DNA of 64,000 nucleotides from Chromohalobacter canadensis. Lineage in GTDB: Bacteria; Pseudomonadota; Gammaproteobacteria; Pseudomonadales; Halomonadaceae. Positions 27,741 to 46,172 of the stretch are shown here, piece after piece. The stretch's first letter is position 1, and each line of letters opens with the position of its first letter. The stretch covers positions 1,302,001 through 1,366,000 of the forward strand of contig NZ_CP140151.1 of the NCBI RefSeq assembly GCF_034479555.1, read 5' to 3'. The position numbers and the translations under genes are program-made. The notes under the pieces are model-generated. The model had not been told where the DNA came from. It searched no databases and saw only the letters and a list, made by a program, of their open reading frames with translations.

Positions 27741-28574
27741 TCACTTGCCGCCATATTTATGCACGATACCCGCCAGCCGTTCGATGCCTTGGGTTACGCT
27801 CTCGCGCTGCCAGGCATTGCGCCCGAAGATCACGCCTCGGGCGCCATTACCCAATGCATCTCGGGTGAAACGTGCCAATGCTGCGTCATCATTCATCGCC
27901 GCCCCACCCAGAACGAGCACCGGAACCGGACAACTCTGCACCAAGGTCTGCATGTCTTCGGGGTTTCCGGTGAACTGCGCCTTGATCAGATCGGCCCCCA
28001 GCTCGGCACCGACCCTCGCGACACGCGCGATCCGATCAGCATCGAGTCGCCCGCCTTCCCGACTGCCCCACACCACCGCTTCGACGATCAACGGCAACCC
28101 GATCGCCTCGCACTGATGGGCGGCCTCCGCCACCGCTTCGAGATTGTCGGCTTCACGCCTGGGATCGTCGTAACCAGAGATCAGGCACATCACCACGGCA
28201 TCCGCCCCCATAGCCTGCGCCTGGGCGGGCGTGGCGATCATGCGGTGATGCTCCTCTCCCGCCAGGGTGAAGTCGCCCACCATCGGGTAGTCGATCCGCA
28301 GCACGATGCTGGGCGCCCGGCTATCGGCAAACAGGTCGCCGCAGGACTTGAGCACGCCCGGCGACAGCAGCACCGCTTCCGGCCCGGCCGCGACGATCGC
28401 CTCGCAGGCTCGGCGCGCATCGATTGCATGTTCCACTGGCCCCGCCAGCAAAGTGCGGTCAAACGCCACCATGCAGCTCAGGCCGGTGTCACGACGAAAC
28501 AGCCGCCCTGTGCGCATTCCGCTCGCAGAGACAGTAGCCTTGGAAACAGCCGTTGTGGAAAAGGTGGCAGTCAT
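27741..28574 (-). CDS. DhnA/LsrF-type class I aldolase in the polyol operon
   Basis: TIM-barrel protein of 277 residues related to DhnA/LsrF/FbaB class I aldolases (DeoC/LacD superfamily). The Schiff-base Lys is expected in the segment ADLIKAQFTGNPEDM; VLVLGGAAMNDD and RGVIFGRNAWQ form the phosphate-binding end. The start at 28574 overlaps the EryB-like gene stop (ATGA), so it is the third coupled gene after the kinase and dehydrogenase. It is clearly separate from the two glycolytic FBP aldolases at 55.6 and 60.5 kb. Likely substrate is a phosphorylated ketose made by the operon, possibly a tetrulose phosphate; this is inference. No EryC-type epimerase is present, so it may take that step's place or open a different exit. 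Confidence 0.82.
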   Translation of the reverse strand: MTATFSTTAVSKATVSASGMRTGRLFRRDTGLSCMVAFDRTLLAGPVEHAIDARRACEAIVAAGPEAVLLSPGVLKSCGDLFADSRAPSIVLRIDYPMVGDFTLAGEEHHRMIATPAQAQAMGADAVVMCLISGYDDPRREADNLEAVAEAAHQCEAIGLPLIVEAVVWGSREGGRLDADRIARVARVGAELGADLIKAQFTGNPEDMQTLVQSCPVPVLVLGGAAMNDDAALARFTRDALGNGARGVIFGRNAWQRESVTQGIERLAGIVHKYGGK

Positions 28575-30340
28575 GATGCGGCCTCCGAGGCTCGGGTTGG
28601 CGAATGACCGTGTTCCGGCATCAGCGAAACGCCATGCAGGCGTGTCGCGATCTCGCACACCGCGTCGATTTCCTCCCGGCGACGTGCCTCGGCCCAGCCA
28701 AGCGACGCGCCGCACAGGCTCGCAACCTCATTGATCACCACGCTGTCGAGCTGGCCCGAGAGCGCAATGGGCAGACGCCGGAACAGCACGTCGGCCAGAT
28801 GCTCGACGCGTTCGAAACGGCAGACAAAATCGATCTCGCCTACACGATAATCGGTAAGCGATACAAGCGAGCGCTGCCGACACACGCCCTCGGCGCTCAT
28901 CCTCGCGCAGTGCCGACCCACCTCTTCGCCCCGTGTACCGTAGCGATCCAGCAGCGTGATCGCCCGGTACCGGTCGCCCTCGCAGAGCGCCGTCACGCGG
29001 GAAAGCCACGTCTCTCGCGACGCAGAATCGCGGGGGTAATCCCGCCCCCCGCCGATGGCCAACTGCCGAGTATCGATCTCGCGGCGCCGACCGAGCCTGG
29101 AGAGCACGCCGTCCGCCACCTCTTCTGCAAAGCCACGAAAGGTGGTCCACTTGCCGCCCACCAGCGACAGCACCGACCAGTCGTGGATGCGATCCTCGAC
29201 GATGGCATGATCGCGGCTGACCTGGCCCGGGTCGGCGGCATCGCTGCGCGGCAGTGGCCGCACCCCGCTGTAGCGATAGCGCACCTGATCAGGCCCAATC
29301 GTCACGTCGGGAAACAGGTAGCGCACCGCTTCGAGCATGTAGTCGCGCTCGGCATCGTCGCAGACAGCCTGATCAGGATCGATGCAACGAATGTCGGTGG
29401 CACCGATCAGCACGTGGTTCATGAAAGGGTATACCAGGCAGATTCTCCCATCCGGCGCACCGAAGTAGATCATGCGGCCATCGAGTTGCTCGCGAATCTT
29501 CGGCACATCGACGATCAGGTGCCCGCCCTTGGTACCGCCGATATGCTGCGTTTCCCGTCCCAGTTGACGGTTGATCTCATCAATCCAGGCGCCGCCGGCG
29601 TTGACGATGATCTGCGGCCTCACCGTGAACGCGTTGCCCTCTTCGTCTTCGAAATTCACCCCCCCGCCATCGCCACCGGTCAAGTTGACGTGGTTGAGCG
29701 CCATCGCCCCGCGGTGGATTCGACAGCCATCGTCGATCAGCTCGAATCCCAGACGCTCTGCCTGACTGATCGCCGCGTCGTAGTAAGTGTGCAGCGCCCG
29801 CACGTCACGCCGTATATCCGGAAGCGATTCACGCACCCTGCGGCCCAGCATCACCGAATGACGTGGCATGCTGCGAAAATGACGGCCGAAAAAGTCGTAG
29901 AGTGTCAGCCCCACTTCACTGATCAGAATGCCGCGATCATCCATCTTTGCCGGGCGGCGGAAAAAACGCTGGATCGACGGCCAGATGCCGCCCCACCAAC
30001 TGTGGGTCGGCATTGCCGTACGCAGCGGATGCACCACGTGTGGCGCGTTGCGCAGCAGCAGGTTGCGCTCACGAGTCGACTGCGCCACCAGCCGGAACTC
30101 GCCAGTTTCCAGATACTTGAGACCACCGTGGATCAATCGTGAAGGCGCGGCGCTAGCCCCGGCGCAGAAGTCCTGCTTGTCGACGATCAGGGTATCGACG
30201 CCCTGCAGCGCCAGATCACGAAACAGCCCGGCGCCATTGATGCCGGCGCCGATGATCAGCACCGAGACCGAGGGGTTGGCTCGCAGGCGTTCCAGCATCT
30301 GCTGACGAGTCAGCGGTGGTGAATTCAGAGATTCCATCAT
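28571..30340 (-). CDS. EryB-like polyol-phosphate dehydrogenase (GlpD family)
   Basis: FAD-dependent dehydrogenase of 589 residues of the GlpD/GlpA family. The FAD-binding motif is at about residues 27-40 (VLIIGAGINGAGLFRDLALQ), followed by CAGASAAPSRLIHGGLKYLE, and the conserved GVRPLPRSD and GGKWTTFR segments. GlpD itself oxidises glycerol 3-phosphate; in erythritol loci the homologue EryB oxidises erythritol 4-phosphate. Its place directly after an EryA-like kinase (ATGA overlap) and not next to glpF/glpK supports the EryB assignment. True substrate remains to be shown; another polyol phosphate is possible. Confidence 0.82.
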   Translation of the reverse strand: MMESLNSPPLTRQQMLERLRANPSVSVLIIGAGINGAGLFRDLALQGVDTLIVDKQDFCAGASAAPSRLIHGGLKYLETGEFRLVAQSTRERNLLLRNAPHVVHPLRTAMPTHSWWGGIWPSIQRFFRRPAKMDDRGILISEVGLTLYDFFGRHFRSMPRHSVMLGRRVRESLPDIRRDVRALHTYYDAAISQAERLGFELIDDGCRIHRGAMALNHVNLTGGDGGGVNFEDEEGNAFTVRPQIIVNAGGAWIDEINRQLGRETQHIGGTKGGHLIVDVPKIREQLDGRMIYFGAPDGRICLVYPFMNHVLIGATDIRCIDPDQAVCDDAERDYMLEAVRYLFPDVTIGPDQVRYRYSGVRPLPRSDAADPGQVSRDHAIVEDRIHDWSVLSLVGGKWTTFRGFAEEVADGVLSRLGRRREIDTRQLAIGGGRDYPRDSASRETWLSRVTALCEGDRYRAITLLDRYGTRGEEVGRHCARMSAEGVCRQRSLVSLTDYRVGEIDFVCRFERVEHLADVLFRRLPIALSGQLDSVVINEVASLCGASLGWAEARRREEIDAVCEIATRLHGVSLMPEHGHSPTRASEAAS

Positions 30341-31905
30341 CGGGTGGCTCCCGCCGTCAGCCTGGATTGAGATTCGGATTCAGCGTCAGGCGCCCCTGGC
30401 GACGAGGCGTTGGCATCGAGCATCTGCCACAGCGGGCGCAGGCACTCGATCAACCGCTGGTAACGTTCGAAGCCTTGCTGGCACTCGGCCTGGCGACGGG
30501 CATCCGGTATATAGCGGTGATCGACCTCGCACAGCCGTGTGGCTGCCTCGATCGACGAGAACGCACCGGCCGCAACGCCCGCGCAGATCGCCGCGCCCCA
30601 GGCCGCCGCCTCCTGAATGCGCGAGGTTTCCAGCGGCCGGCCGAGCGAATCAGCGAAGAGCTGGGCCAGCCGCGGCGAGTGACTTCCACCGCCGGTGATG
30701 CGGATGCGGTCGATGGCAAAGGTCGACGCCAGGGCATCGACATGCACGCGATGATTGAACACCACGCCTTCCAGAATCGCGCGCAGCACATGACCGCGAC
30801 CATGCCAGCCCTGCAGACCGAACAGGCCCGCGCTGGCCGGCTCGTCATAGGGCGAGCCATAGAGAAAGGGGTGATAAACCAGACGCGATGGGCTCCGGAA
30901 TGCCTCGTCCAGCGCCTCCTCCATGTCAGCGAGAAACGCCCCGGCACCGCCATCTCCGGTCCGGCCCCACTGGCGGTGAAACCATTCGAGATTGCTCGAC
31001 GACGCCGGTGAAATCGCCATGTTGAGCCACTGGCCCGGGCGCAGGCCGTTGCGGGTTGCCCAGCGCGGATCGGGGTTCGGCGCGTCGGAAAAGACTTCGT
31101 TGATGCTGAAGGTGCCAGCTGCAATGGTCAGCGTATCCGATTCGATATTGCCCAGACCCACCGCGCTGGCCGTGACATCGTGAAGCCCGGTCGCCACGGG
31201 AATCCCTGCCTTCAAGCCGGTCTCGCGGGCCGCCGCTTCGCAGACATGCCCGGCGATCTCGTCGGGCATACGCACCTCCGGCAGTGCATCGAAGACGCCA
31301 TCAATCCCCAGCATCGACAGCGCGTCAAGGCTGTAGCGCTGAGTGTTAACGTCGGTATAGCCCGTACTAGCCTCGGTGAAATCGGTCGCTACCGTGCCGG
31401 TCAGCTTGAAACGCAGCCAGTCCTTGCAGGTCAGTACATTCCCGAGCGCGGCAAACCGCTCAGGCTGACGATCCTGCATCCACGCCAGCAAGGTCACCGG
31501 AGAGAAAGCGAAAGGCGTCTGCCCGATCCTCGCCAGCGCTTCGTCACGCACGTCCTCCTGGCACCAGCGCTCCACCATACTCGCCGCGCGGCTATCCAAT
31601 GAGGTGATCGCGTGACCGAGCGGTTCGCCCTTGCGATCGAGCGGATAGAGCCCGTCGCCATGCGCCGTGACGCCGATCGCCAGGATTTCACCACCGTCCA
31701 GCTCGGCCGCTTCCAGAGCGCCGCGTATCGCCGCTGCAGCGCTCACCCAAGCGGCGTTCATGTCACGCTCGACCCAATGCGCCTGAGGATGTTCGAGACA
31801 GCACGCCTCCCGCCCGACGCCCATGACATTACCCGTGGTATCGAAGATCACCGCCTTGGTGGAACTGGAACCGCCATCGAGCCCCAGCAGATAACCGCGT
31901 GACAT
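30337..31905 (-). CDS. FGGY-family carbohydrate kinase, EryA (erythritol kinase)-like
   Basis: Kinase of 522 residues with the ATP phosphate-binding loop LDGGSSSTKAVIFDTTG at the N-terminus, and the FGGY second signature ITGGGSHSPRLAQLFADSLG in the C-terminal domain. Length matches Brucella EryA (about 520). It is first in a tightly overlapping kinase-dehydrogenase-aldolase operon, divergent from the binding protein/EltD/DeoR operon. By analogy it phosphorylates erythritol or a related polyol. A xylulose- or ribulokinase role is less likely because of the partner dehydrogenase. Confidence 0.82.
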   Translation of the reverse strand: MSRGYLLGLDGGSSSTKAVIFDTTGNVMGVGREACCLEHPQAHWVERDMNAAWVSAAAAIRGALEAAELDGGEILAIGVTAHGDGLYPLDRKGEPLGHAITSLDSRAASMVERWCQEDVRDEALARIGQTPFAFSPVTLLAWMQDRQPERFAALGNVLTCKDWLRFKLTGTVATDFTEASTGYTDVNTQRYSLDALSMLGIDGVFDALPEVRMPDEIAGHVCEAAARETGLKAGIPVATGLHDVTASAVGLGNIESDTLTIAAGTFSINEVFSDAPNPDPRWATRNGLRPGQWLNMAISPASSSNLEWFHRQWGRTGDGGAGAFLADMEEALDEAFRSPSRLVYHPFLYGSPYDEPASAGLFGLQGWHGRGHVLRAILEGVVFNHRVHVDALASTFAIDRIRITGGGSHSPRLAQLFADSLGRPLETSRIQEAAAWGAAICAGVAAGAFSSIEAATRLCEVDHRYIPDARRQAECQQGFERYQRLIECLRPLWQMLDANASSPGAPDAESESQSRLTAGATR

Positions 31906-32216
31906 GGCTGCCTCCCTGCTATCGCCTTCGTTGAATCATTCACTAGCGCCTTGCACAAACGTCACTTGTGGTCATTTCTAACATTATTCTGTGACACAAA
32001 GTCGTTAGACGTTAGTTTTAAAAACTTTTATAATTCAAAACAAACCATAAATATCAATCAGTTATTAAATTATAGCCAGACAGAAAACTTATCCAAGACC
32101 AAAGTTATACGGCAATTTGTCACTTCTTGATGTTATTTATTACCTACCGGCCACGGTTGCGATAGTTGCCGGAGACCTTCAATAAAAAACCCGCCTCCCC
32201 ACAGGAGTTCGCCGTC
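31906..32216. promoter_or_regulatory. AT-rich divergent promoter region of the tetritol block A
   Basis: This 311-base gap between the kinase (minus) and the binding protein (plus) is strikingly AT-rich; the row 32041-32100 has 18 G/C of 60. It contains the small palindrome TGAATCATTCA (31932-31942). It shares the 10-mer ATTCACTAGC (31938-31947) with the block B upstream region (42690-42699). No gene is seen. Confidence 0.55.
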
Positions 32217-33182
32217 ATGCCCAACGCCATACTTCGCAACGTCTTGCACGCGCTGCCATTCGTTCTCGGCACGGCCTCCATCGCCGCCACGACCACCACG
32301 GCAAATGCCGACAATGCCCAGAGCGAATATCGTTTCGTCGTGGTCCCCAAGGTCGTTCACCCCTGGTTCGACCAGCTCAACGAAGGTGCACAGGAAGCCG
32401 CCCGGGAAATCCACCGCCTGACCGGCGCCGAAGTGACGGTTCAATACACTGCTCCGCAGAGTGCCAGCGTCGCTGAACAGAATCAGATCCTGGAGCGCGC
32501 TATAGCCACGCGTCCCGATGCCATCATCACCGACCTGCTCGACCCCACCGGCAACCGCACTGTGGTCCGCGAAGCCCTGGATCAGGAAATCCCCGTCTCG
32601 GTCATCGACGACAAGGGGATCGAGGATATGCACTTGCCCGTCGTCGGCAGCGACTACTGCACCCAAGCAAAGGTCGCGGCAGAACGCCTGGTCGAGCTTC
32701 TAGATCAGAAAGGCAACGTGGCGATCATGATGGGCGTACCGACCGCCTCCAACCATGCGCAGCGTGCCAAGTGCAGTCAGGCGGTATTCGATAGCTACCC
32801 CGACATCGAAGTGGTCGCCACCGGCGTCGACAACGACAGCATCTCCACGGCTCAGAACCAGGCCGCTGCGATCATGCAGTCCCATCCCGACCTGGACGGC
32901 TGGGTGCCCTCCAACGCCGCCGGCCCCATCGGCATCGGCCAGGCGGTCAAGGAAGCCGGCAAGGTAGGTCAGGTCAAGATCGTCGGTATCGACGACCTCA
33001 ACCAGACCTTGGATCTGATCCAAGAAGGCGTGATCGACTCCACCTCCGCCCTGCGGCCGAGAATGATGGGCTACTGGTTCATCATCAGCGCTTGGCAGCG
33101 TGCCAACGGCGCGGAGGTGCCCGAGTACATCGACACCGGGCATGTATTCATCGACCAGAACAACGTCGAAGAATACCTGTGA
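32217..33182 (+). CDS. Periplasmic sugar/polyol-binding protein (paralogue 1)
   Basis: ABC-transporter solute receptor of 321 residues, Peripla_BP_4 (RbsB-like) family. The signal peptide ends about residue 30 (AATTTTANA). The mature start YRFVVVPKVVHPWFDQLNEG is shared almost word for word with the two paralogues at 37.8 and 41.5 kb. Start at 32217 is fixed by AGGAG; upstream codons are not signal-like. It is followed by EltD and a DeoR regulator with no permease or ATPase, so it probably feeds the transporter encoded in block B. Expected ligand is a tetritol. Confidence 0.88.
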   Translation: MPNAILRNVLHALPFVLGTASIAATTTTANADNAQSEYRFVVVPKVVHPWFDQLNEGAQEAAREIHRLTGAEVTVQYTAPQSASVAEQNQILERAIATRPDAIITDLLDPTGNRTVVREALDQEIPVSVIDDKGIEDMHLPVVGSDYCTQAKVAAERLVELLDQKGNVAIMMGVPTASNHAQRAKCSQAVFDSYPDIEVVATGVDNDSISTAQNQAAAIMQSHPDLDGWVPSNAAGPIGIGQAVKEAGKVGQVKIVGIDDLNQTLDLIQEGVIDSTSALRPRMMGYWFIISAWQRANGAEVPEYIDTGHVFIDQNNVEEYL

Positions 33183-33231
33183 ATCAGCAACCTGCTTGCG
33201 CACTTCCCATATGCCAGCTCAGGAGACCATC

Positions 33232-34323
33232 ATGACGCTTCCCGAAAGCATGCAAGCCGTGGTCTGCCGTGGCCCCGGCGACTATCGCCTGGAGCGCGTA
33301 CAGACGCCTCAACCCGGCCCGAGCGAACTGGTTCTCAAGATCCAGGCCTGCGGTATCTGTTCGAGCGATCTGAAGTGCCGCGATGGCGCCGCCATGTACT
33401 GGGGTGACGGAGATCGCTTCCCGCCTTTCGTCAAACCGCCGATGACCGTTGGCCATGAATTCGCCGGTGAAGTGGTCGCGATGGGCGAAGGCGCAAAAGC
33501 ACACTTCGGAGTTGCGCTGGGTGACCGCGTGGTGCCGGAACAGATCCTGCCCTGTCGACAGTGTTTCTATTGTCAGCGCGGCCACTACTGGATGTGCGAG
33601 GTGCACAACATCTTCGGCTTTCAAGGCGGCGTCGCCGAAGGTGGCATGTCGGAGTATCTACGCGTGCCAGCCAATGCCGTGTTGCATGCGGTCGATCCAC
33701 GCCTGAGCGTCGAGGACGCTGCCTTCCTCGAGCCGTTGGCCTGCGGCATCCACGCCGTCAATCGGGCCGACATCCAGTTCGACGATACCGTAGTGATCGC
33801 TGGCGGCGGACCGATCGGCCTGGCGATGGTCCAGCTAGCCAAGCTCAAAACGCCCAAACAGCTGATTCTGGTCGACACTCATGACGACCGCCTGGCGCTG
33901 GCCCGTGACTACGGCGCCGATCACGGCTTCAATCCGCACCGCGACGACATTGCCAAGGAGATAAGGGCACTCACCGGTGGCTACGGCTGTGAGGTCTATA
34001 TCGACGCCACCGGCTCATCGAGTGGCGTGGCCCAAGGATTGGAAGCCCTGCGCAAGCTCGGCCGTTTCGTCGAATTCAGCGTGTTCAAGGAACCTACCAC
34101 CGTCGACTGGTCGACCATCAGTGACCGCAAAGAGCTGGATATTCGCGGCTCGCATCTTTCACCACACACGTACCCGGTGGCGATCAGCCTGCTGGCTCGA
34201 GGCTTGGTGACGACGCATGGCATCGTCACGCACCAAGTTCCGCTGACCGATTTCGAGCGCGGCTTCGAAATCGCCGCCCAGCGTGATTCGATCAAGGTCG
34301 TGCTGATCACTGACCACGCCTGA
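33232..34323 (+). CDS. eltD: Zinc-dependent erythritol/L-threitol dehydrogenase-like (EltD)
   Basis: Medium-chain dehydrogenase of 363 residues that oxidises a tetritol to erythrulose with NAD. Catalytic zinc ligands are Cys43 (CGICSSD), His75 and Glu76 (VGHEF). The structural zinc cysteines are 108, 111, 114 and 122 (PCRQCFYCQRGHYWMC). The Rossmann motif is VIAGGGPIGLAM. The opening MQAVVCRGPGDYRLE and the segment ASDLKC/SSDLKC-x-GAA-x-YWGD resemble what I recall of M. smegmatis EltD. Start at 33232 follows CAGGAG. It is the middle gene of binding protein-EltD-DeoR. Confidence 0.85.
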   Translation: MTLPESMQAVVCRGPGDYRLERVQTPQPGPSELVLKIQACGICSSDLKCRDGAAMYWGDGDRFPPFVKPPMTVGHEFAGEVVAMGEGAKAHFGVALGDRVVPEQILPCRQCFYCQRGHYWMCEVHNIFGFQGGVAEGGMSEYLRVPANAVLHAVDPRLSVEDAAFLEPLACGIHAVNRADIQFDDTVVIAGGGPIGLAMVQLAKLKTPKQLILVDTHDDRLALARDYGADHGFNPHRDDIAKEIRALTGGYGCEVYIDATGSSSGVAQGLEALRKLGRFVEFSVFKEPTTVDWSTISDRKELDIRGSHLSPHTYPVAISLLARGLVTTHGIVTHQVPLTDFERGFEIAAQRDSIKVVLITDHA

Positions 34324-34406
34324 CACATCCAATTCTCCAGGATCAGCAGGCTGAGGTAAGCTGTGCCGGCTCTATTGCCAGCGTCTACGTTCGCCACGGG
34401 AGAAAT

Positions 34407-35216
34407 ATGACCTCGCTCGATACCACTGCGCCCCGTACCAAGGCTCACATCAAGGGCGCACCGGCACGTCGCCAGGCGATGCTGGATTACCTTATTCAAG
34501 CCGGCTCGGCGCAGGTCGACGAGCTGGCCGAGCGGTTCGGCGTCAGCCGCATGACGGTACATCGAGACCTCGACTCGCTTTCCGAACAGGGCATGGTCAA
34601 CAAGCAGCACGGAGGCGTCACCACTCGCTCCTCCAGCGTGTTCGAAAGCAACTTCGCGCTACGCTCGCATATCGCGGCCCGGGAGAAGCAGGCGCTGGCC
34701 CGAGCAGCACTGGAAGAGATCGCGCCTGGCCAAGCGGTGATGCTCGACGATTCCACCACGGCCAGCGAGCTGGCCTCACTGCTGCCCACCCGCGAACCGC
34801 TGACCGTGATCACCAACGGCCTGGAAAGCATCGGTCGCCTGAAGGCCGCCAGCGGTATCAAGTTGATCACTCTGGGCGGAGATTACCAGCCACGCTTCAA
34901 CGCGACGTTCGGCCTGCTATGCGAGCAGACGCTCGCCAATCTGCGGGCCAGCGTCGCGGTGCTTTCTGCGTCAGCCATACTCGGCACCACGGCTTACGTG
35001 CAGGATCCGGCAGTGACCCAAATCAAACGCGCCCAGATGGCAGCGGCCGAGCGGCGTATCTTGCTGATTCACAGCGCCAAATTCGGCCATAGCGCATTGC
35101 ACCGACTGGCCGATCTCTCAGAATTCGACCTGGTGCTGATCGATGCTGGGCTTTCCGCCGAGCATCGCGCCGCGTTGGATGAGGCGGAAATCGTTTATCG
35201 ATTGATCAAGGCTTGA
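34407..35216 (+). CDS. DeoR-family transcriptional regulator
   Basis: Regulator of 269 residues. N-terminal DeoR HTH (RRQAMLDYLIQAGSAQVDEL then AERFGVSRMTVHRDLDSLSE) and a C-terminal sugar-phosphate-binding DeoRC domain (VMLDDSTTASELASLL; VITNGLESI; HSAKFGHSAL). Members usually respond to a phosphorylated pathway intermediate, here possibly a tetrulose phosphate. It closes the plus-strand operon of block A and is the only transcription factor gene in the whole island, so it may also control block B. Brucella EryD belongs to a different (SorC) branch. Confidence 0.9.
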   Translation: MTSLDTTAPRTKAHIKGAPARRQAMLDYLIQAGSAQVDELAERFGVSRMTVHRDLDSLSEQGMVNKQHGGVTTRSSSVFESNFALRSHIAAREKQALARAALEEIAPGQAVMLDDSTTASELASLLPTREPLTVITNGLESIGRLKAASGIKLITLGGDYQPRFNATFGLLCEQTLANLRASVAVLSASAILGTTAYVQDPAVTQIKRAQMAAAERRILLIHSAKFGHSALHRLADLSEFDLVLIDAGLSAEHRAALDEAEIVYRLIKA

Positions 35217-35422
35217 CCGTTCATCGTCAGAAATCCTCGGTGCTCGAAACGCCGGATGCCTTCACGAGGCGGTAATACGCTGACCACACGCATGGCAGGA
35301 TGCGTCGATGGGCACTTACCGGTCAATGGCCACCTCCGACATTTGATGCCACATGGCTTCTCGGCGACAATACCCAACCGAATCCCGGGGCCCGCACAAG
35401 CGGCGCCCCGCGCTCGATATCG

Positions 35423-37555: not shown

Positions 37556-37585
37556 AAAAGGCACGGCCAATCGACCGTGCCTTTT
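37556..37585 (+). terminator. Terminator of tktA
   Basis: AAAAGGCACGG (37556-37566) pairs with CCGTGCCTTTT (37575-37585), loop 8 bases, T-run TTTTT on the plus strand, 31 bases after the tktA stop. The following 37586-37792 holds no convincing gene. Confidence 0.92.
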
Positions 37586-37792
37586 TCCTGCTACCTTATA
37601 CATTGTTGCACGAGGGAGACTGCTTAGCGGCACACATAAAACAATGTGCAGCTACTACATGGCCACTTCCTCAAGGCAAGGGAAAACCTCCCCCGAAGGT
37701 GATGGCACTCTTCGGCGAAGGCGCGTCCAAGCTCAAAAGCGTCTCGGCATTCTTGCCGATGCTGGCTAGAACTGACTTTTTCTGCCCACAAC

Positions 37793-38803: not shown

Positions 38804-38861
38804 ACCTCCCCCTATTCTTGTCACTCTAACTTAGTCTCGTTATCGAGCCTTCCTTCAAACA

Positions 38862-38879
38862 GGGCCAACTTCTTGGCCC
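38862..38879 (-). other. Intercistronic hairpin between permease and binding protein 2
   Basis: GGGCCAA / TTGGCCC with a 4-base loop forms a perfect 7-bp stem in the 96-base gap. No T-run follows on either strand. Such hairpins often stabilise or process ABC-operon mRNAs so that the binding protein is made in excess. Confidence 0.55.
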
Positions 38880-38899
38880 AAGATTGACTAATATCGGAA

Positions 38900-39859
38900 T
38901 CAATCTCGCTTAAAGTAGCGCCGCGAGATCGAGTCAAGTGCGATAGCGACAACCACGATGGCACCCGTAACCATCGCTTGCCAGTAAGGCGACACCCCAA
39001 TCAGTACGATGATGTTTTTGATTACACCAATGATCGCCGCACCAAAGATCGCCCCCAATGGTGTACCAATACCGCCAGTCGTAGGCACACCACCAATGAC
39101 CGCGGCAGCAATTGGGCCCAGTACCCAAGAGTCACCGATCGAGGGTTGCGCCGACCCCAGTCTCGCTACCATCAACATACCAGCCAACGCCGCCAAGAAG
39201 CCGGCGAAAGCGAACACACCAACGCGTACTCTATCGGTACGAATGCCCAGCATCTGTGCCGCGGGAAGATTACTACCTACCGCGTACATATAGCGCCCGA
39301 AAGGTGTTTTCAAGGTGAGGAAGCAAGCCAGCGCCAAGAATACCAACATGACCCAGAACGGAACCGGCATACCTAACCAAGTGCCACTACCCATAAAGCC
39401 AATGTCGGCAGGGATCCCTGTAATCGCCACCCCTTTAGTGATAACTAGGTTAAGGCCCCCATAAACACCCGCCATGCCGATAGTAAGCACCAACGATGGC
39501 AAGCGCAAAAGCGTAACCAGTAAGCCATTTATTACCCCGAAAAGGGTTCCGATCACCAGGCAGAGTCCGAAAGATAGCCATGGGTTAATCCCCATGTTTA
39601 CCATCATGATCCCACCGATAACACCACAGAAACCACCAATAGCTCCCAAGGAAAGATCCAGCTCACCGAGAATCATTAACATCGACTGCCCAATGGTAAT
39701 AAGACCAATAAATGCTAGTGTCCTGGAGACAATAACCAAGTTATAACTATTGAGGAAGTTCTCTGATAAAATAGATGCGGAGACCAATATGATCACTAGA
39801 ACACTAATCACCCCACTGAGAGGGTTGCTGACCATGAATCCCATTAATTTACGCAGCAT
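38900..39859 (-). CDS. Sugar/polyol ABC transporter permease
   Basis: Membrane protein of 319 residues of the RbsC/BPD_transp_2 family with about ten helices; the ITIGQSMLMILGELDLSLGA segment is typical. It forms the channel with the adjacent ATPase. I place the start at ATG 39859 because GGAGGA lies seven bases upstream inside the end of the ATPase gene (11-base overlap). Low GC: 28 of 60 bases at 39001-39060. It is the only permease for three binding proteins in the island. Confidence 0.9.
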   Translation of the reverse strand: MLRKLMGFMVSNPLSGVISVLVIILVSASILSENFLNSYNLVIVSRTLAFIGLITIGQSMLMILGELDLSLGAIGGFCGVIGGIMMVNMGINPWLSFGLCLVIGTLFGVINGLLVTLLRLPSLVLTIGMAGVYGGLNLVITKGVAITGIPADIGFMGSGTWLGMPVPFWVMLVFLALACFLTLKTPFGRYMYAVGSNLPAAQMLGIRTDRVRVGVFAFAGFLAALAGMLMVARLGSAQPSIGDSWVLGPIAAAVIGGVPTTGGIGTPLGAIFGAAIIGVIKNIIVLIGVSPYWQAMVTGAIVVVAIALDSISRRYFKRD

Positions 39860-41354
39860 CACCATCTCCTCCGTGGCCATGAATGGCACCAACCAAGTCG
39901 GCACCAGTAGCGTTCTCAATGTTGAAATCACCACTAATGTGCCCTTCATACATTGTGATAATTCGATTGGCACAGCGCTGGAGCTCATCCATCTCCGACG
40001 ATACTAAAATGATACCGACGCCACGTTCGGCAAGCTCTTTCATCAACCTATAAATCTCCATCTTGGTACGCAGGTCGATTCCCTTGGTAGGCTCATCAAA
40101 AATGAGCACTTTGGGGTTGCACGCCATGGCCCGGCCAATGATCGCCTTCTGCTGATTCCCTCCGGATAAAAAAGTAATATCCTTATTAAGTGTCGGCGTC
40201 TTGATATCGTAATCGCGGACGATCGCGCTGACTCGCCCACGTTCTTTACGAGAATCAATAAAACCTCTTACTGCGGTTTCGCTAAACAGTGCCATACCGA
40301 TGTTTCGGCGCACACTCTGCCCAGGAAAAATACCGTGATACTTTCTTTCTTCGGAAAGATAAAATAATCCATTATGAACCGACTTACTTGTATTACCGAG
40401 CTGCCATTCCTGACCTTCGACTCGTAACGTACCGGCACGGGCGGGAAGGTACCCGAACAACGTCTGCATGACTTCGGAACGGCCGGCACCCACCAACCCG
40501 GCAAAACCCAAGATCTCGCCGCGTTGCAGTTGAAACGAAACGTCCTCGAACCTCTTACCGCTTAATCCGACCACCTCGAGCAGAACCTCATGAGCGCTAT
40601 CACTCTCATCCGGCTGCAGCTGAGCATCGGTCTTAATTTCCTGACCGGACATCAGCTTAACCAATTGCTTATCATCCAGCTGTGAAACGGGTTGGGTATC
40701 AACCTTCTGCCCATTACGAAGTACACTTATAGTGTCACTGATCGCAAACATCTCATCGAATTTGTGCGAAATGAACATTACCCCACAACCTTTCGCCACC
40801 ACGTCGCGCACTACACGAAATACTCGCTCGACTTCAGTTTCCGTCAATGATGAAGTCGGCTCATCGAGTATCAAAATTTTCATCGATTCGTTGGTGCAGG
40901 CTCGCGCAATCTGCAGAAGCTGCTGGTCGGAAATCGAGATGTTGCCCACCTTATCGCTAGGCTGGGCAGCGATATTGAAACGCTCTATCCAGGATTGTGC
41001 TTCCCGCTCCAACTGGCGGCGCCGAAAGATCATGCCGCCATGATGCGAGCGGGAAAAAGGCATGAATAGGTTCTCGGCCACTGTCAAATTAGTGAAGAGG
41101 TTGATTTCCTGAGGCACATAGGCAACGGTCTTATACAGATGCGAATGTTCAGCAGCATCCTCGCCGTCAATTATCAACCTGCCTGACGTTGGACGCTCAG
41201 TACCGGTCAGAATCTTTACCAGCGTCGACTTACCTGCCCCATTCTCCCCAGCCAGTGTATGCACCTTGCCCATCTCGATTTCGAGCTCGATATCATCCAG
41301 CGCCGTCACTCCAGGAAAGGTCTTGCCTACGTGGTCTACATACAAATAAGCCAT
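39849..41354 (-). CDS. Sugar/polyol ABC transporter ATPase (double-domain)
   Basis: Two-domain ATPase of 501 residues, RbsA/MglA type. First Walker A GENGAGKSTLVKIL, Walker B LILDEPTSSL, and signature ISISDQQLLQIAR. The second domain lacks a canonical Walker A (GLVGAGRSEVMQ, as in the family) but keeps SGGNQQKAIIGRA and LIFDEPTKGID. It energises uptake of the tetritol. It overlaps the permease by 11 bases and follows binding protein 3 after a hairpin-containing gap. Confidence 0.93.
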   Translation of the reverse strand: MAYLYVDHVGKTFPGVTALDDIELEIEMGKVHTLAGENGAGKSTLVKILTGTERPTSGRLIIDGEDAAEHSHLYKTVAYVPQEINLFTNLTVAENLFMPFSRSHHGGMIFRRRQLEREAQSWIERFNIAAQPSDKVGNISISDQQLLQIARACTNESMKILILDEPTSSLTETEVERVFRVVRDVVAKGCGVMFISHKFDEMFAISDTISVLRNGQKVDTQPVSQLDDKQLVKLMSGQEIKTDAQLQPDESDSAHEVLLEVVGLSGKRFEDVSFQLQRGEILGFAGLVGAGRSEVMQTLFGYLPARAGTLRVEGQEWQLGNTSKSVHNGLFYLSEERKYHGIFPGQSVRRNIGMALFSETAVRGFIDSRKERGRVSAIVRDYDIKTPTLNKDITFLSGGNQQKAIIGRAMACNPKVLIFDEPTKGIDLRTKMEIYRLMKELAERGVGIILVSSEMDELQRCANRIITMYEGHISGDFNIENATGADLVGAIHGHGGDGDAA

Positions 41355-41374
41355 CAGATCCCCCTTACCACTTC

Positions 41375-41406
41375 AGTTCGGACGCCATTCGGGAAGCGCC
41401 CGAACT
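41375..41406 (-). other. Intercistronic hairpin between binding protein 3 and the ATPase
   Basis: AGTTCGGACGC and GCGCCCGAACT form an 11-bp stem with one mismatch and a 10-base loop, with no T-run. The position, right after the binding-protein gene, fits a transcript-processing or attenuating element that keeps the receptor more abundant than the ATPase. Confidence 0.6.
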
Positions 41407-41462
41407 CGACTCAGGCCTGTCATGGGTCATCAACAGACGTGACAGAACAACAGCAGCAACCC

Positions 41463-42434
41463 TTACTGCTTGTTGTACGAGTCGACATTATCCGGCGTGA
41501 TCATCACATTACCGGTATCGATATGATTAGGTGTGACGGCGCCGGTGGAGTCCTGCCACATGTTCATTACCGCCCAATATCCCTGCATGTTGGGACGTGA
41601 TGCTGAGGAGGAATCCGCTACGCCTTCCTTGATAAGTTCCAGCATTTGGCTGAGATCATCGAGGCCAACTAGCTTGACCTTGTCTGTCTTGCCAGCTTCT
41701 TTGATTGCCTGACCGATACCAATTGGTCCAGCAGCATCAGAGGCTACCCAGCCATCAAGCTCGGGATTCGCCTGCATGATCGCAGAAGCCTGTTGCTGCG
41801 CCGTGCTGATATCGTCATTGTCGACCCCCGTTGCCACAACCTCGATACCCTCTGCAGTATCGAATACTTCCTGTGCACAACGCGCACGTTCGGCATGGTT
41901 GGGAGCCGTGGGGACACCCATCATAATCGCCACCTGGCCCTCTCCATCGAGCAGCTCCACCAAACGATTGGCTGCCATATTGGCCTGCTCACAGAAGTCA
42001 CTACCCACGGTAGTCAGGTGCATGCCGTCCGGATTACTAGAGTCGAACAATGTGATCGGGATTCCCTGGCTCTTGGCATCACGCAGCACACTACGGTTGC
42101 CGTTAGGATCCAGCAGGTCCACGATCAGGCCATCTGGACGCGTGGCAATAGCACGTTCGATGATCTGATTCTGCTCGGAGACACTGGCGCTTTGGGGGGC
42201 AGAATACTGAATTTCGACCTCAGCACCGGTTTGGGCTTCAATAGCCGCCGCGGCCTGCTGAGCGCCATTATTGACCTTATCGAACCATGGATGGACCACT
42301 TTGGGCACCACCACGAAACGGTAGCTATCGGCAGTTTTGGTTCCCGGGCTATCGGCCGCCTGAGCTGTAGTAGCAAGCGTTACGGAAGTCAGCACACTTA
42401 ACGCCAACACCATACCGGCTTTGGTGATTTTCAT
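41463..42434 (-). CDS. Periplasmic sugar/polyol-binding protein (paralogue 3)
   Basis: RbsB-type receptor of 323 residues; signal peptide ends about residue 27 (ATTAQAAD). The mature start YRFVVVPKVVHPWFDKVNNG and the later GVPTAPNHAERARC and SDAAGPIGIGQAIKEAGK are very close to paralogue 1. It heads the block B operon: binding protein 3-ATPase-permease-binding protein 2. Ribosome site GGAGAGG. Likely ligand is a tetritol or erythrulose. Confidence 0.9.
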   Translation of the reverse strand: MKITKAGMVLALSVLTSVTLATTAQAADSPGTKTADSYRFVVVPKVVHPWFDKVNNGAQQAAAAIEAQTGAEVEIQYSAPQSASVSEQNQIIERAIATRPDGLIVDLLDPNGNRSVLRDAKSQGIPITLFDSSNPDGMHLTTVGSDFCEQANMAANRLVELLDGEGQVAIMMGVPTAPNHAERARCAQEVFDTAEGIEVVATGVDNDDISTAQQQASAIMQANPELDGWVASDAAGPIGIGQAIKEAGKTDKVKLVGLDDLSQMLELIKEGVADSSSASRPNMQGYWAVMNMWQDSTGAVTPNHIDTGNVMITPDNVDSYNKQ

Positions 42435-42544
42435 GGCACCTCTCCTGACTTGATTATGATTTTGGGTAATTGGAGGCCTGCAGCATCAGGCTTCTGAAAT
42501 GGCGCCTACCCTAATAGGCACCTAGGGTGCATATGAAATTTGAC

Positions 42545-42753
42545 TGATCATATGTATAGCGCATTTAGCCATGAGTAAAGGTCACGAAAGACAATGACGC
42601 AATCTAGACTTTAGTGGGCATGCCGCCAACTCACTAACATGCATGGATAAATTCACAATTCAGGCGCCACCTTGTTAGCAACAGGCGAAATTCACTAGCA
42701 CTCAGATGATCATAATACGCAACATATGATCATCACTGACCAACCTGATCATG
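42545..42753. promoter_or_regulatory. Cluster of TGATCA motifs upstream of binding protein 3
   Basis: Four TGATCA palindromes lie at 42545, 42707, 42727 and 42746 within the 353-base gap between rpiB (ends 42788) and binding protein 3 (starts 42434). Two form an exact inverted pair of the 10-mer CATATGATCA (42723-42732 forward; 42545-42554 reverse). Those at 42707 and 42727 are 20 bases apart, two helical turns. These are candidate operators; nothing else is seen in the gap. Confidence 0.6.
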
Positions 42754-42787
42754 CATTTCAATAGGCTTAGCGCGCCGAAGATAGGGC

Positions 42788-43246
42788 TCAGCGACCATCG
42801 CGCTCATATGCTGCGATGCGATCAACCTTCGCCTGGGAGCTTCCACCCGAAAACTCACTAGACAGGAAGGTCTCAGCAATCATTTTGGCCAACTCGAGCC
42901 CAATGACACGAGCCCCCATAGTGACGATTTGCGCATCGTTACTCTTACGCGCACGCTCCGCAGAATAGGTGTCATGCGCCTGCGCCGCGCGAATACCCGG
43001 CACCTTGTTGGCGGAAACCGCCACTCCTATCCCGGTACCGCATATCAGTACACCGCGATCAACCCGACCCTCAGAGACCGCCTGCGCCACCTCAAGGGCC
43101 ACATCGGGATACAGCACCGGCTTGGCGTCATGAGTGCCGAAATCTTCAACGTCGTACCCCAATGACTCGATGTGCGCGACCAGTACCTGCTTCATGTCAT
43201 AGGCCGCTTCATCACACCCGAGAGCAACTTTCCACTTCTCCGCCAT
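42788..43246 (-). CDS. RpiB-type isomerase, probably D-erythrulose-4-phosphate isomerase (EryI/DerI-like)
   Basis: Isomerase of 152 residues of the RpiB/LacAB family. It keeps the active-site segment ICGTGIGVAVSANKVPGIRA and the AHDTYSAERARKSNDA-QIVTMGARV block. In erythritol/threitol loci the RpiB homologue (EryI in Brucella, DerI in M. smegmatis) turns D-erythrulose 4-phosphate into D-erythrose 4-phosphate, which fits this context better than ribose 5-phosphate isomerisation. The start at 43246 follows GAGAGGTG. It reads away from the kinase gene across a 405-base gap. Confidence 0.87.
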   Translation of the reverse strand: MAEKWKVALGCDEAAYDMKQVLVAHIESLGYDVEDFGTHDAKPVLYPDVALEVAQAVSEGRVDRGVLICGTGIGVAVSANKVPGIRAAQAHDTYSAERARKSNDAQIVTMGARVIGLELAKMIAETFLSSEFSGGSSQAKVDRIAAYERDGR

Positions 43247-43332
43247 ATTCACCTCTCATTGCTAACTTCGATATTGATACCCAGCACCACCGGGCCGCGG
43301 TAACCCACACCAGCATCCTAGACCGAAAACGC

Positions 43333-43539
43333 TCATATGAACAATAAGGTTACACATGATCAAAAACACCGAGAAGAGCGCATGAAAAATTTCGTAAGCA
43401 GGAATGTAAACGCAGACAAACACGCTAAAACCGCTGATCACACTCAACGAAATCCCCAAAGACACCACCAAAGTCGCATATCTATGGCCTTTTCCATCGC
43501 TATGATGGGCCTTAACACAATGCAAAATCATATGAACAA
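43333..43539. promoter_or_regulatory. Repeated operator-like motifs between rpiB and the erythrulose kinase
   Basis: The 12-mer TCATATGAACAA occurs exactly at 43333-43344 and 43528-43539. TGATCA occurs at 43357 and 43435. The motif vocabulary (CATATGA, TGATCA) is the same as upstream of binding protein 3. The whole 405-base gap (43247-43651) is AT-rich and has no convincing gene; it must hold the divergent promoters of rpiB and the kinase. Confidence 0.6.
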
Positions 43540-43651
43540 CATCAGATCAAATCTTCAAAACGAATTATCTTGATAGAAAATCCAATTTCACGGATAGCAC
43601 ACTCCGCCGAAAGGGGCCTTCAAGCTAAGTCATCAACCGGGAGCGTCGGTC

Positions 43652-45382
43652 ATGACACGTCTGCATAACGACCCTGTGAAATTCGTCGAGGAAGCCATCG
43701 AAGGTTTCATCGCTGCACATGCGCAACACGTCTGCCAGGTTCCAGGCGGTGTCATCCGCAACACGCGTAGCGAAAAGGGAACTGTCGCCGTAGTTATCGG
43801 CGGCGGTTCTGGTCACTATCCGGCATTTGCCGGCCTTGTCGGGCAGGGGCTGGCCCACGGTGCAGTGATAGGCAACCTGTTTGCATCACCTTCTGCCCAA
43901 CAGATCTATAACGTCTGCAAAGCAGCCAATAATGGTGGTGGAGTACTGCTAAGTTTCGGCAACTATGCAGGGGATGTGCTGCACTTCGGCCAGGCCCGCG
44001 AGCGCCTGCTTCGTGAGGGGATTCACTGTGAGATTGTGGCGGTCACTGACGACATCTCCAGTGCCAGCCTTGATGAGTTACAGAAGCGACGCGGCATTGC
44101 CGGTGACTTGACTGTATTTAAGACCGCCGCCGCTGCCGCAGAAGAAGGCTACTCGTTGGAAGAAGTTGTCCGAGTCACTCGTGCCGCAAATTTGCGCACC
44201 CGCTCAATGGGCGTAGCCTTCGATGGCTGCACCCTTCCGGGAGCTGACGACGCGCTGTTCCATGTCCCCGAGGACAGAATGGCCGTCGGCATGGGCATTC
44301 ATGGCGAGCCGGGTATCAGCGAACAGGAAGTACCCAGTGCAGACGAACTTGCGGAGTTACTGGTCTCTCACCTGCTCAAGGAAGTCCCTGACGTCCTCGT
44401 CAGTGCTAACGGCTCAAGGGCAGCTGTCCTGCTGAACGGGCTGGGCGCAATCAAATATGAAGAGCTATTCGTTGTCTACCGCCGCGTAAATCAGCTCCTC
44501 AAAGAAGCAGGCATCGAAATCGTCGAGCCAGAGGTCGGAGAACTGGTCACCAGTCTGGACATGGCCGGCACATCGTTGACCCTGTTCTGGCTCGACGATG
44601 AGCTTGAGCGCTTGTGGCGGGCGCCTGTAGATAGCCCGGCCTACCGCAAGGGCAACTCGAAACCGGTCGCCCAGATCGATGGATCCAAGCTCGACACCCC
44701 AGTTGAGGACACCATCCCCCCGGCCAGCGAGGCTTCTAGCGAAGCCGCCCATTGCATCAGCGAGGCTCTGAGCACCATTCGCCAACTCATCGATGACCAT
44801 GTCGATGAGCTCGGACGCCTGGATGCCATTGCCGGAGATGGAGATCACGGTATCGGCATGCAACGCGGCGCCGTGGCAGCATCAGAGGCCGCCAACAAGG
44901 CGCTAAGCAGCAATGCCGGCGCCGGCACCTTGTTAAATCTTTCCGCAAAGGCCTGGGCTGACCGCGCAGGCGGTACGTCCGGAGCAATCTGGGGCGTCAT
45001 ACTTAACGCCTTGAGCGTTACTTTCGGCGACCAAGACAAGCCAACAGCTGACCATTACGCTCGCGCACTTATCAAAGCCAAAGAAGATGTCATGAGCTTT
45101 GGCAAAGCCAAGGCTGGTGACAAGACACTGGTCGATGCACTGATCCCTTTCAGTCAAACGCTTGAGCAGCAGGTCAGCAGCGGTGATGATTTGGCAAACG
45201 CCTGGGACAAAGCCTCTGCGGCAGCCGCCGAAGCGGCCGAGGCAACAGCAGACATGATCCCTCAGATTGGGCGCGCCCGCCCGCTTGCCGAGAAGAGCCT
45301 TGGAACACCTGATCCGGGCGCCAAGTCTCTCGCCATGATCGTGGGTGCCGTTCAAAATATAATTCAAAGTCACCAACGTTAG
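43652..45382 (+). CDS. ATP-dependent erythrulose kinase (DhaK-DhaL fusion; LerK/DerK-like)
   Basis: Kinase of 576 residues with DhaK (about 1-330) and DhaL (about 365-576) on one chain, as in ATP-dependent dihydroxyacetone kinases. Substrate-binding His217 is in MGIHGEPG. The DhaL Mg-ATP motif GDGDHG is at residues 395-400, and GGTSGAIWG follows. In M. smegmatis such proteins are L- or D-erythrulose kinases (LerK, DerK). The neighbouring TPI-like and RpiB-like isomerases make L-erythrulose 1-phosphate the more likely product. Dihydroxyacetone itself remains an alternative substrate. Followed 19 bases later by the isomerase gene. Confidence 0.9.
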   Translation: MTRLHNDPVKFVEEAIEGFIAAHAQHVCQVPGGVIRNTRSEKGTVAVVIGGGSGHYPAFAGLVGQGLAHGAVIGNLFASPSAQQIYNVCKAANNGGGVLLSFGNYAGDVLHFGQARERLLREGIHCEIVAVTDDISSASLDELQKRRGIAGDLTVFKTAAAAAEEGYSLEEVVRVTRAANLRTRSMGVAFDGCTLPGADDALFHVPEDRMAVGMGIHGEPGISEQEVPSADELAELLVSHLLKEVPDVLVSANGSRAAVLLNGLGAIKYEELFVVYRRVNQLLKEAGIEIVEPEVGELVTSLDMAGTSLTLFWLDDELERLWRAPVDSPAYRKGNSKPVAQIDGSKLDTPVEDTIPPASEASSEAAHCISEALSTIRQLIDDHVDELGRLDAIAGDGDHGIGMQRGAVAASEAANKALSSNAGAGTLLNLSAKAWADRAGGTSGAIWGVILNALSVTFGDQDKPTADHYARALIKAKEDVMSFGKAKAGDKTLVDALIPFSQTLEQQVSSGDDLANAWDKASAAAAEAAEATADMIPQIGRARPLAEKSLGTPDPGAKSLAMIVGAVQNIIQSHQR

Positions 45383-45401
45383 TCACCATATAGAGGCATT
45401 C

Positions 45402-46172
45402 ATGCAACGCTCTACCATTACGCTGGGCATCAGTTTCAAGATGTACTTTGGTTATGCTCAGACGCTGACATGGTGCCGCGAGATTGCCGCTTCATTGGAA
45501 AAACATCCGGCTGTGCTCGATGGTCGGGTATCGTTGTTTGTACTGCCCAGCTTCCCCGCAATAGCGCCGGTACTCAATATTTTTAACGACACCCCAGTCG
45601 GCGTTGGCGGCCAAAACCTCTATCAATCAGCCTACGGCGCCTATACAGGTGAAGTGAGTGGCGCCATGCTGGCTGAAATGGGGTGCCGCTATGTCGAGAT
45701 CGGACATGCCGAGCGCATGCGACTCTTCGGAGAAGATATCGAAACCGTGGCTACCAAGGTACAGGTGGCGTTGGCACACCAACTGATACCGGTACTCTGC
45801 ATCGGTGAAGCTGAATGTGGCGCGCCAGAAGCGGCAATCGCGAATTGCCGTGCACAGATCGACAGTGCACTATCATTGGCCACGCCGGAACAATGCCAAC
45901 AGCCGATCATCATCGCTTATGAGCCACACTGGGCAATCGGCGCTTCAGAACCAGCATCACTTGAGCACATTGCTACGGTCTGTCAGGGCCTACGCGAGCA
46001 TATGAACTCACACCCCGCAGCCAGCATCATCTATGGCGGCAGTGCCGGCCCCAACTTATTGACCAAGCTAGCAGGGCAGGCTGACGGGTTATTCCTGGGA
46101 CGCTTTGCTCACGATCCGGCCGCATATAACACCATCGTTAACGAGGCCTCGATACTTGTCGCCTCGCACTGA
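45402..46172 (+). CDS. Triosephosphate-isomerase-like L-erythrulose-1-phosphate isomerase (LerI/EryH-like)
   Basis: TIM-barrel isomerase of 256 residues. Catalytic Lys13, His102 and Glu174 are kept. The motifs differ from glycolytic TPI: SFKMYFG instead of NWKMN (Ser for the active-site Asn11), GHAERM instead of GHSERR, and EPHWAIGASEPAS instead of EPVWAIGTGKTA at flexible loop 6. These changes resemble EryH/LerI, which convert L-erythrulose 1-phosphate to D-erythrulose 4-phosphate. The gene is coupled to the erythrulose kinase. The housekeeping tpiA should lie elsewhere. Confidence 0.88.
   Translation: MQRSTITLGISFKMYFGYAQTLTWCREIAASLEKHPAVLDGRVSLFVLPSFPAIAPVLNIFNDTPVGVGGQNLYQSAYGAYTGEVSGAMLAEMGCRYVEIGHAERMRLFGEDIETVATKVQVALAHQLIPVLCIGEAECGAPEAAIANCRAQIDSALSLATPEQCQQPIIIAYEPHWAIGASEPASLEHIATVCQGLREHMNSHPAASIIYGGSAGPNLLTKLAGQADGLFLGRFAHDPAAYNTIVNEASILVASH

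Follow-up and report, generated by a model that had tools for sequence, protein, structure and literature searches.

Introduction

Systems close to the locus studied here have been described in Mycolicibacterium smegmatis and in rhizobia. In the M. smegmatis pathway, as in the present gene set, a dehydrogenase acts first and is followed by a kinase and isomerases leading to erythrose-4-phosphate (PMC10733421 and PMC12780249), and EltD and LerK are described as converting erythritol to D-erythrulose-4-phosphate and L-threitol to L-erythrulose-1-phosphate (He et al. 2023, PMC10733421). The same paper notes that an erythrulose-1-phosphate aldolase, working in the cleavage direction, has been suggested for P. 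pentosaceum and S. meliloti, calls the co-occurrence of such an aldolase with isomerases worth study, and reports an erythrulose-monophosphate formaldehyde-assimilation cycle that was built synthetically and whose natural existence is thought possible. In Rhizobium johnstonii and R. leguminosarum, the erythritol locus has the form eryABCD-eryR-tpiB-rpiB / eryEFG. According to a P. freudenreichii genome study, the erythritol genes of that species were not located (PMC4437456), and C. salexigens DSM 3043 is given as erythritol-positive in a table of a source whose metabolic model needed reactions added for erythritol (PMC3034673). Here we analysed a stretch of 64,000 nucleotides (the window; NZ_CP140151.1, positions 1,302,001 to 1,366,000 of the forward strand) from the 3.6-Mb single-contig genome of Chromohalobacter canadensis, in which polyol-catabolism genes lie on both sides of a transketolase gene (tkt). 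An earlier note on this DNA had read them as one hybrid tetritol island around tktA, in which a Brucella-type phosphorylate-first route and an M. smegmatis-type oxidise-first route may share their last two isomerases.

We found that in this one Chromohalobacter the native housekeeping tkt is flanked on each side by an acquired gene block of putative catabolic function. This two-sided acquisition at a native gene, a native erythritol-type locus further along, and the separation of the block A kinase/dehydrogenase pair from EryA-EryB are the strongest results of the analysis.

Results

Two acquired blocks around a native tkt

In the genus set (ten genomes, the present one included), the gap between metK and tkt is 245-352 bp in all nine congeners and 7,979 bp here. 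Since the nine congener copies are 94-98% identical to it, tkt belongs to the genus, and we rejected it as a member of the acquired unit: it is the metK-adjacent gene of the genus with acquired blocks on both sides, which removes the catabolic tktA from the centre of the earlier scheme. When seven of the nine congeners were compared by BLASTN, native sequence ran through 27715 in all seven, restarted at 35327 or 35337 in six and at 35485 in one, and aligned again from 47716-47720 in six and from 48908 in one. The intervening stretches (block A between metK and tkt, block B after tkt) are missing from all seven, where the native pieces are contiguous or nearly so. The native tkt terminator is split by an insertion sequence (IS) of the IS3 family, the left half occupying 46236-46259 and the right half starting immediately behind the IS; because the element sits in the native terminator, block B probably ends near 46235 and the IS would be a separate event, and IS3 was ruled out as the carrier of block B.

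Elsewhere, tkt adjoins a set of a fused DhaK-DhaL kinase (DhaKL) and a triose-phosphate isomerase (TPI)-like gene in two Salinicola genomes (G066, G101), a Kushneria (G015) and a Halotalea (G037), and in these four that tkt is the sole match at E<=1e-150. At this threshold, six of seven genomes tested gave a match, with two in G040 and none in G114.

A native erythritol-type locus

A native locus overlooked in the earlier note spans 60203-64000 of the window and continues beyond it to about 74.2 kb (G000:C1:1376197). The full locus was read in the present genome and one congener. It starts with a gap/epd-type dehydrogenase, pgk and class II fba, continues with EryG, EryF, EryE, DUF2291, a Zn-dehydrogenase (75-76% identical to its Salinicola counterpart), a regulator that includes a sugar-binding domain, and RpiB, and ends with DhaK, DhaL, a transaldolase and a second tkt (tkt2), the right part being assigned by Pfam and NCBIfam on the congener proteins. 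The transaldolase has a 97% identity match in the present genome, and tkt2 occurs in 10/10 genus members. In a survey of 161 Halomonadaceae genomes, 18 of them Salinicola, a match of at least 67% to R. johnstonii EryG was found in 55, including all ten of the genus. No TPI-like gene was seen in the native locus, and the nine congeners gave one TPI match each at E<=1e-20. The native locus could account for the reported erythritol growth of C. salexigens. An open reading frame (ORF) at 55638-56690 stands at the place of a second DeoC/LacD-family aldolase that a congener (L180) carries near gap-pgk-fba.

The kinase/dehydrogenase pair of block A

All of the gene families listed by the earlier note were found in place by Pfam and NCBIfam profile matches; the names EryA and EryB were not upheld. 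The window FGGY kinase is 28-29% identical to three EryA proteins as against 46-49% to a second rhizobial FGGY kinase (FGGY2), and the GlpD-like FAD dehydrogenase (GPD) is 30-31% identical to EryB as against 47-49% to a second rhizobial GPD (GPD2). The EryA clade and the EryB clade are each separate in the trees (100/100 in both), and on these identities and clades we rejected both labels. For this comparison, ery gene names, which are absent from the plasmid records themselves, were assigned from neighbours and from Geddes 2013: EryC- and EryD-type neighbours served to recognise EryA and EryB in the records of R. johnstonii 3841 and Paracoccus, whereas for R. leguminosarum and R. tumorigenes, whose stretches are cut at this point, EryA was recognised by 70-73% identity to the other EryA. 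EryC gave no match at E<=1e-8 in the present genome or in 11 other Halomonadaceae, and it was found in the positive controls (G206, G464).

In the records of R. johnstonii, R. leguminosarum, R. tumorigenes and Paracoccus, FGGY2-GPD2 adjoins EryEFG. It is apparently a second, undescribed kinase/dehydrogenase pair of these rhizobial loci; the accessible part of Geddes et al. 2013 (PMC3599248) holds no description of it. When a phylum sample of 398 genomes was searched with the window GPD, five loci outside Halomonadaceae matched at 45-50% identity, and four of these are FGGY2-GPD2 beside EryEFG and EryAB. One of these four, in G206, reads EryG-EryD-FGGY2-GPD2-TpiB-RpiB, and both Aidingimonas genomes read carry FGGY-GPD-TPI with no EryC match, so that a kinase/GlpD-like pair sharing an operon with isomerases is indeed seen in relatives. 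Seven further loci at 41-43% GPD identity are of the type of Rhizobium sp. BT03, an operon of aldo-keto reductase (AKR), GPD, DhnA-type aldolase, FGGY kinase and GMC oxidoreductase; AKR and GPD are present in all seven, and DhnA, FGGY and GMC in six each. This operon carries its own ABC transporter (L143:5263-12012; L171-L177). In G017, the third gene after FGGY-GPD, where Aidingimonas has the TPI-like gene, encodes a highly diverged protein that resembles the DhnA type only weakly (L159:7266-8231; 321 aa, no Pfam match).

Isomerases, kinase and transport of block B

In the TPI-like protein the motifs of the catalytic Lys, His and Glu are conserved, but Ser replaces the residue that corresponds to Asn11 of ordinary TPI. 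Ser occupies this position in all 17 Halomonadaceae TPI-like copies aligned, the window included, as well as in the TpiB-type proteins of R. johnstonii, G206 and L185 and in the piece of Protein Data Bank (PDB) entry 11ef, and Asn is kept in two TPIs presumed to be housekeeping (G114, G496). Entry 11ef, named L-erythrulose-1-phosphate isomerase, shares 82% identity with R. johnstonii TpiB and 37% with the window protein. The window RpiB is 48% identical to an EryI-type isomerase. DhaKL scores well over the cut-off of NF011049 and belongs to the DhaK-type kinase family, which is presumably also that of LerK, and the block A Zn-dehydrogenase falls in the Zn-dependent medium-chain dehydrogenase/reductase (Zn-MDR) family. 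PDB matches were uninformative on the substrate of the Zn-dehydrogenase and of RpiB and did not settle the ligand of the receptors. Only the L-threitol route needs LerI, which points to the native locus for erythritol and block B for the L-erythrulose side; as block B brings a candidate LerI-type isomerase, for which no counterpart was seen in the native locus, it likely opens an L-erythrulose/L-threitol branch.

Of the three periplasmic sugar-binding proteins, SBP1 has no permease of its own. It is closest to SBP3, 54-55% identical to SBP2 and about 29% identical to native EryG, and could deliver its ligand through the transporter encoded in block B.

The DhnA-type aldolase

The Schiff-base Lys198 is kept in 19/19 aligned relatives of the aldolase. 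Where the Thermoproteus fructose-bisphosphate (FBP) aldolase 1ojx has what we take to be Trp144 and the catalytic Tyr146, the subfamily has Glu165 (19/19) and Val167 (18/19, Thr in one), and the catalytic Tyr of class I FBP aldolase (DhnA/FbaB) is thus not kept. The aldolase scores under the cut-off of all eight NCBIfam models listed, and the term 'ketotetrose-phosphate aldolase' gave no match in open-licence literature. The protein had no role in the earlier scheme. Its use as a stand-in for the EryC epimerase was considered and not adopted, the evidence pointing neither way.

Relatives in Salinicola and Halomonas halmophila

The aldolase occurs in 17 of the 161 family genomes, namely the present one and 16 of the 18 Salinicola, and in none of the nine congeners; a TPI-like relative of at least 50% identity occurs in 33 and a GPD relative in 20. 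The aldolase, GlpD-like and TPI-like genes are all present in 16/18 Salinicola genomes. The combination, which the earlier note had thought undescribed for Halomonadaceae, is therefore not unique to this genome, and related sets occur in several genera of the family. In trees with five Salinicola rows each, the window copy is nested inside Salinicola for FGGY (97/93) and for GPD (98/94). The window TPI-like protein pairs with that of Halomonas halmophila (G114; 99/97) within an otherwise Salinicola group. The H. halmophila proteins are 95% (RpiB), 85% (DhaKL) and 85% (TPI-like) identical to those of block B, and this set lies on a 4-kb contig without a transporter.

Layout of the locus

The features are listed in Table 1. 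The aldolase, GPD and FGGY genes overlap by 4 bp at each junction. The listed permease ORF overlaps the ATPase ORF, and the true start of the permease is therefore probably further in. No match was found in an Rfam scan of 22000-52000 or in a tRNA scan of the whole window.

Table 1 Features of the two acquired blocks and their native surroundings (window coordinates).
Feature	Position	Strand	Basis or remark
metK, native left flank	26297..27541	-	94-100% identity, 10/10 genus members including own
Acquired block A, metK-to-tkt interval	27716..35336		right edge at 35326-35336; alignment resumes at 35485 in one congener
DhnA-type (DeoC/LacD) class I aldolase	27741..28574	-	PF01791; alignments including 1ojx
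GlpD-like FAD dehydrogenase (GPD, GPD2 type)	28571..30340	-	PF01266+PF16901; identities, tree
FGGY kinase (FGGY2 type)	30337..31905	-	PF00370/PF02782; identities, tree
SBP1, periplasmic sugar-binding protein	32217..33182	+	63-66% identity to SBP3
Zn-dependent MDR dehydrogenase, polyol dehydrogenase type	33232..34323	+	family match
DeoR/GlpR-type regulator	34407..35216	+	family match
tkt, native transketolase	35521..37524	+	94-98% identical metK-adjacent copy, 9/9 congeners
Acquired block B	about 37525..46235		left edge 37486-37525, inside or just after tkt 3' end
SBP2	37793..38824	-	family match
ABC permease	38900..39988	-	family match; ORF as listed
ABC ATPase	39849..41354	-	family match
SBP3	41463..42434	-	family match
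RpiB-type isomerase, candidate DerI	42788..43252	-	NF051858 174.7 bits, under cut-off 240
Fused DhaK-DhaL kinase, candidate LerK	43652..45382	+	NF011049 762.6 bits, cut-off 492
TPI-like isomerase, candidate LerI/EryH type	45402..46172	+	Ser at Asn11 position
IS3-family element within native tkt terminator	46263..47715	+	family match, terminator halves on both sides
Native EryG-type receptor	61664..62620	-	73-74% to R. johnstonii 3841 EryG
Native EryF-type permease	62639..63790	-	75% identity

Discussion

Taken as a whole, the locus is best explained, at a rough probability of 0.55, as a native erythritol-type locus joined by an L-erythrulose/L-threitol branch in block B and a phosphorylate-first module in block A. 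Gene content, insertion sites, the native tkt, the native locus and clade membership are established, and for the scheme that follows we infer the substrates, the stereochemistry and every reaction. First, the native locus would probably take up erythritol through EryGFE and convert it by way of D-erythrulose and D-erythrulose-4-phosphate to D-erythrose-4-phosphate. Second, block B, with its own ABC uptake and with DhaKL, the putative LerI-type TPI-like isomerase and RpiB, would lead L-erythrulose through L-erythrulose-1-phosphate and D-erythrulose-4-phosphate to D-erythrose-4-phosphate. Third, block A would be a second, phosphorylate-first module other than Brucella EryAB, in which the FGGY kinase would form a polyol phosphate and the GlpD-like enzyme a 2-keto 1-phosphate; this product could pass to the block B isomerases, if C4, or be cleaved by the DhnA-type aldolase to dihydroxyacetone phosphate (DHAP) and an aldehyde. 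Both C4 and C5 polyols are candidates for the block A substrate. The two-entry idea of the earlier note thus survives in altered form: an oxidise-first set (dehydrogenase, DhaKL, TPI-like protein, RpiB) does co-occur with a kinase/GlpD-like pair, and the identification of that pair with the Brucella EryA-EryB-EryC route falls.

Several observations weigh against this reading. The genes of block B have a GC content at third codon positions (GC3) of 0.55-0.62 and those of block A of 0.73-0.79, and 12 background genes have a mean of 0.80 (standard deviation 0.05, range 0.73-0.85); since block A touches the background range and native eryG (0.70) and eryF (0.73) are equally low, composition marks only block B as acquired. 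The top PDB match of the TPI-like protein is 3s6d, a putative TPI (131.8 bits), ahead of 11ef (121.5), with TPIs following from 113.9. Its identity to EryH-type proteins is no more than 35-37%, and its score on NF000722 is 185.8 (cut-off 293; R. johnstonii TpiB 436). It groups with the EryH/LerI rows (98/98), apart from the two presumed housekeeping TPI rows, in a tree that has long branches. The window RpiB stays under the cut-off of the D-erythrulose-4-phosphate isomerase model, which R. johnstonii RpiB passes with 257.7. The fifth of the loci at 45-50% GPD identity (G533) has BT03-type partners, and none of the ten genus genomes was identified as that of C. salexigens. Finally, the neighbours of the aldolase were counted in 65 loci outside Salinicola, taken from the best 80 of 334 minus 15 loci (L061-L075; 14 titled Salinicola and one Gammaproteobacteria bacterium MFB021), with expected counts derived from those parts of each locus that lie far from the aldolase. 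Within 3.5 kb, an FGGY kinase was found in 41/65 loci (13.1 expected) and a Zn-dehydrogenase in 22/65 (1.2 expected), and GPD, TPI and DhaKL in 0/65. The other counts were 13/65 for a 2-hydroxyacid-type dehydrogenase (2.4 expected), 7 for DeoR (7.1), 2 for AKR (2.4) and 2 for RpiB. These neighbourhoods argue for a general ketose-1-phosphate aldolase. Kinase with aldolase thus forms the wider partnership, and it is FGGY-GPD that links the module to tetritols.

The same counts speak for a tentative alternative, in which block A is a pentitol module lying beside the tetritol genes by chance. A pentulose-1-phosphate, made by the Zn-dehydrogenase and FGGY or by FGGY and GPD, would then be split by the aldolase to DHAP and glycolaldehyde. 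The rhizobial BT03-type loci agree with it, having no TpiB or RpiB in the stretches read. However, FGGY2-GPD2 adjoins EryEFG and EryAB in four of the five sampled loci at 45-50% GPD identity, and TpiB-RpiB in one, and the Salinicola counterpart of block A adjoins EryGFE.

We consider it unlikely that the aldolase is a natural erythrulose-1-phosphate aldolase that cleaves the GPD product to DHAP and formaldehyde. According to He et al. 2023 (PMC10733421), an enzyme of this kind has been suggested for other bacteria, among them P. pentosaceum, and aldolase and isomerase genes are found together both in the present genome and in Salinicola. Among the Propionibacteriaceae loci, one (L185) likewise holds FGGY, a DhnA-type protein and TpiB-RpiB in about 7.5 kb, but its DhnA protein is closer to the BT03 branch (29%) than to that of the window. 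Moreover, the aldolase subfamily has no general tie to tetritol isomerases, and neither block has a gene that could be recognised as serving formaldehyde handling. Still less probable, in our estimate, is the extension by which the FGGY-GPD-DhnA trio would be the missing genetic form of the Propionibacterium-type erythritol route, whose first steps we take to be a kinase and a polyol-phosphate dehydrogenase, complete with a true erythrulose-1-phosphate aldolase. If it were true, this organism and Salinicola would be natural carriers of the core parts of the erythrulose-monophosphate formaldehyde-assimilation cycle, that is, a reversible aldolase, a LerI-type isomerase, RpiB and transketolase in one cell. 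The Propionibacteriaceae loci read gave partial matches only; L185:8056-15600, with FGGY, a DhnA-type protein and a Zn-dependent alcohol dehydrogenase (ADH) near TpiB-RpiB, is a lead for the Propionibacterium erythritol genes.

The original scheme of Brucella-type EryA-EryB plus an M. smegmatis-type route with shared last isomerases around tktA is very improbable: both module types are present, but the low identity to EryA and EryB, the separate clades, the missing EryC match in the genome and the native tkt all speak against it. Equally hard to credit is an ancestral origin of the blocks with loss from nine congeners instead of gain here, since the related sets in several genera of the family are outweighed by the short metK-tkt gaps in 9/9 congeners, the nesting of FGGY and GPD inside Salinicola and the low GC3 of block B.

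These results have several uses. First, they provide candidate genes for the reported erythritol growth of Chromohalobacter, which had been filled in by hand in the published metabolic model. Second, a second and apparently uncharacterised kinase/dehydrogenase pair can now be told apart from EryA/EryB in well-studied rhizobial loci. Third, a DhnA-type aldolase whose active site is unusual lies beside tetritol-phosphate isomerases, a setting in which others have sought a natural erythrulose-1-phosphate aldolase. The acquired blocks probably also let the bacterium feed on more kinds of small sugar alcohols, and their presence or absence within the genus offers a ready genetic contrast for growth comparison.

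Compared with the known systems, the window combines features of several. Like the M. smegmatis EltD-LerK/DerK-LerI-DerI pathway, it would use a dehydrogenase first and then a kinase and isomerases, presumably of the same protein families, the comparison being by family; unlike that pathway, it has two further modules and another type of kinase. With the R. johnstonii/R. leguminosarum erythritol locus it shares FGGY2-GPD2 (46% and 48-49% identical to the window proteins) and relatives of TpiB and RpiB; the rhizobial locus differs in having EryA, EryB, EryC and EryD, and in the 30 kb read it contains neither DhaKL nor a DhnA aldolase. The BT03-type operon unites GPD, a DhnA aldolase and FGGY, as block A does, but the identities are 30% (aldolase), 42% (GPD) and 38% (FGGY), the clades are separate, and GMC and AKR are its partners. 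The block A aldolase belongs to the fold family of the archaeal-type class I FBP aldolase, LsrF and MJ0400, with the Schiff-base Lys and the Gly-Gly and GRN motifs, and departs from the Thermoproteus enzyme at the two active-site positions described above.

The closest likeness in gene content is the polyol cluster between metK and tkt in Salinicola, for which no description was found in open-licence literature and whose gene content we checked by tblastn. In Salinicola tamaricis (G136, L046:2127-3975), GPD is split over three ORFs and an ATPase over two, through decay or sequencing errors. The cluster has the same enzymes and the same metK neighbour as the window: the aldolase, GPD, FGGY and ADH are present in 10/10 stretches covering that part, and RpiB, DhaKL, the TPI-like gene and tkt in 11/11 genomes read. 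EryG and a second Zn-dehydrogenase are found in 9/11, the other two genomes carrying EryG outside the stretch, and the block B permease, ATPase and SBP3 occur in 4/11 and SBP1 in 1/11. Salinicola keeps EryGFE, DUF2291 and the second Zn-dehydrogenase within the cluster, between metK and its tkt, whereas in the window the native tkt divides the set in two.

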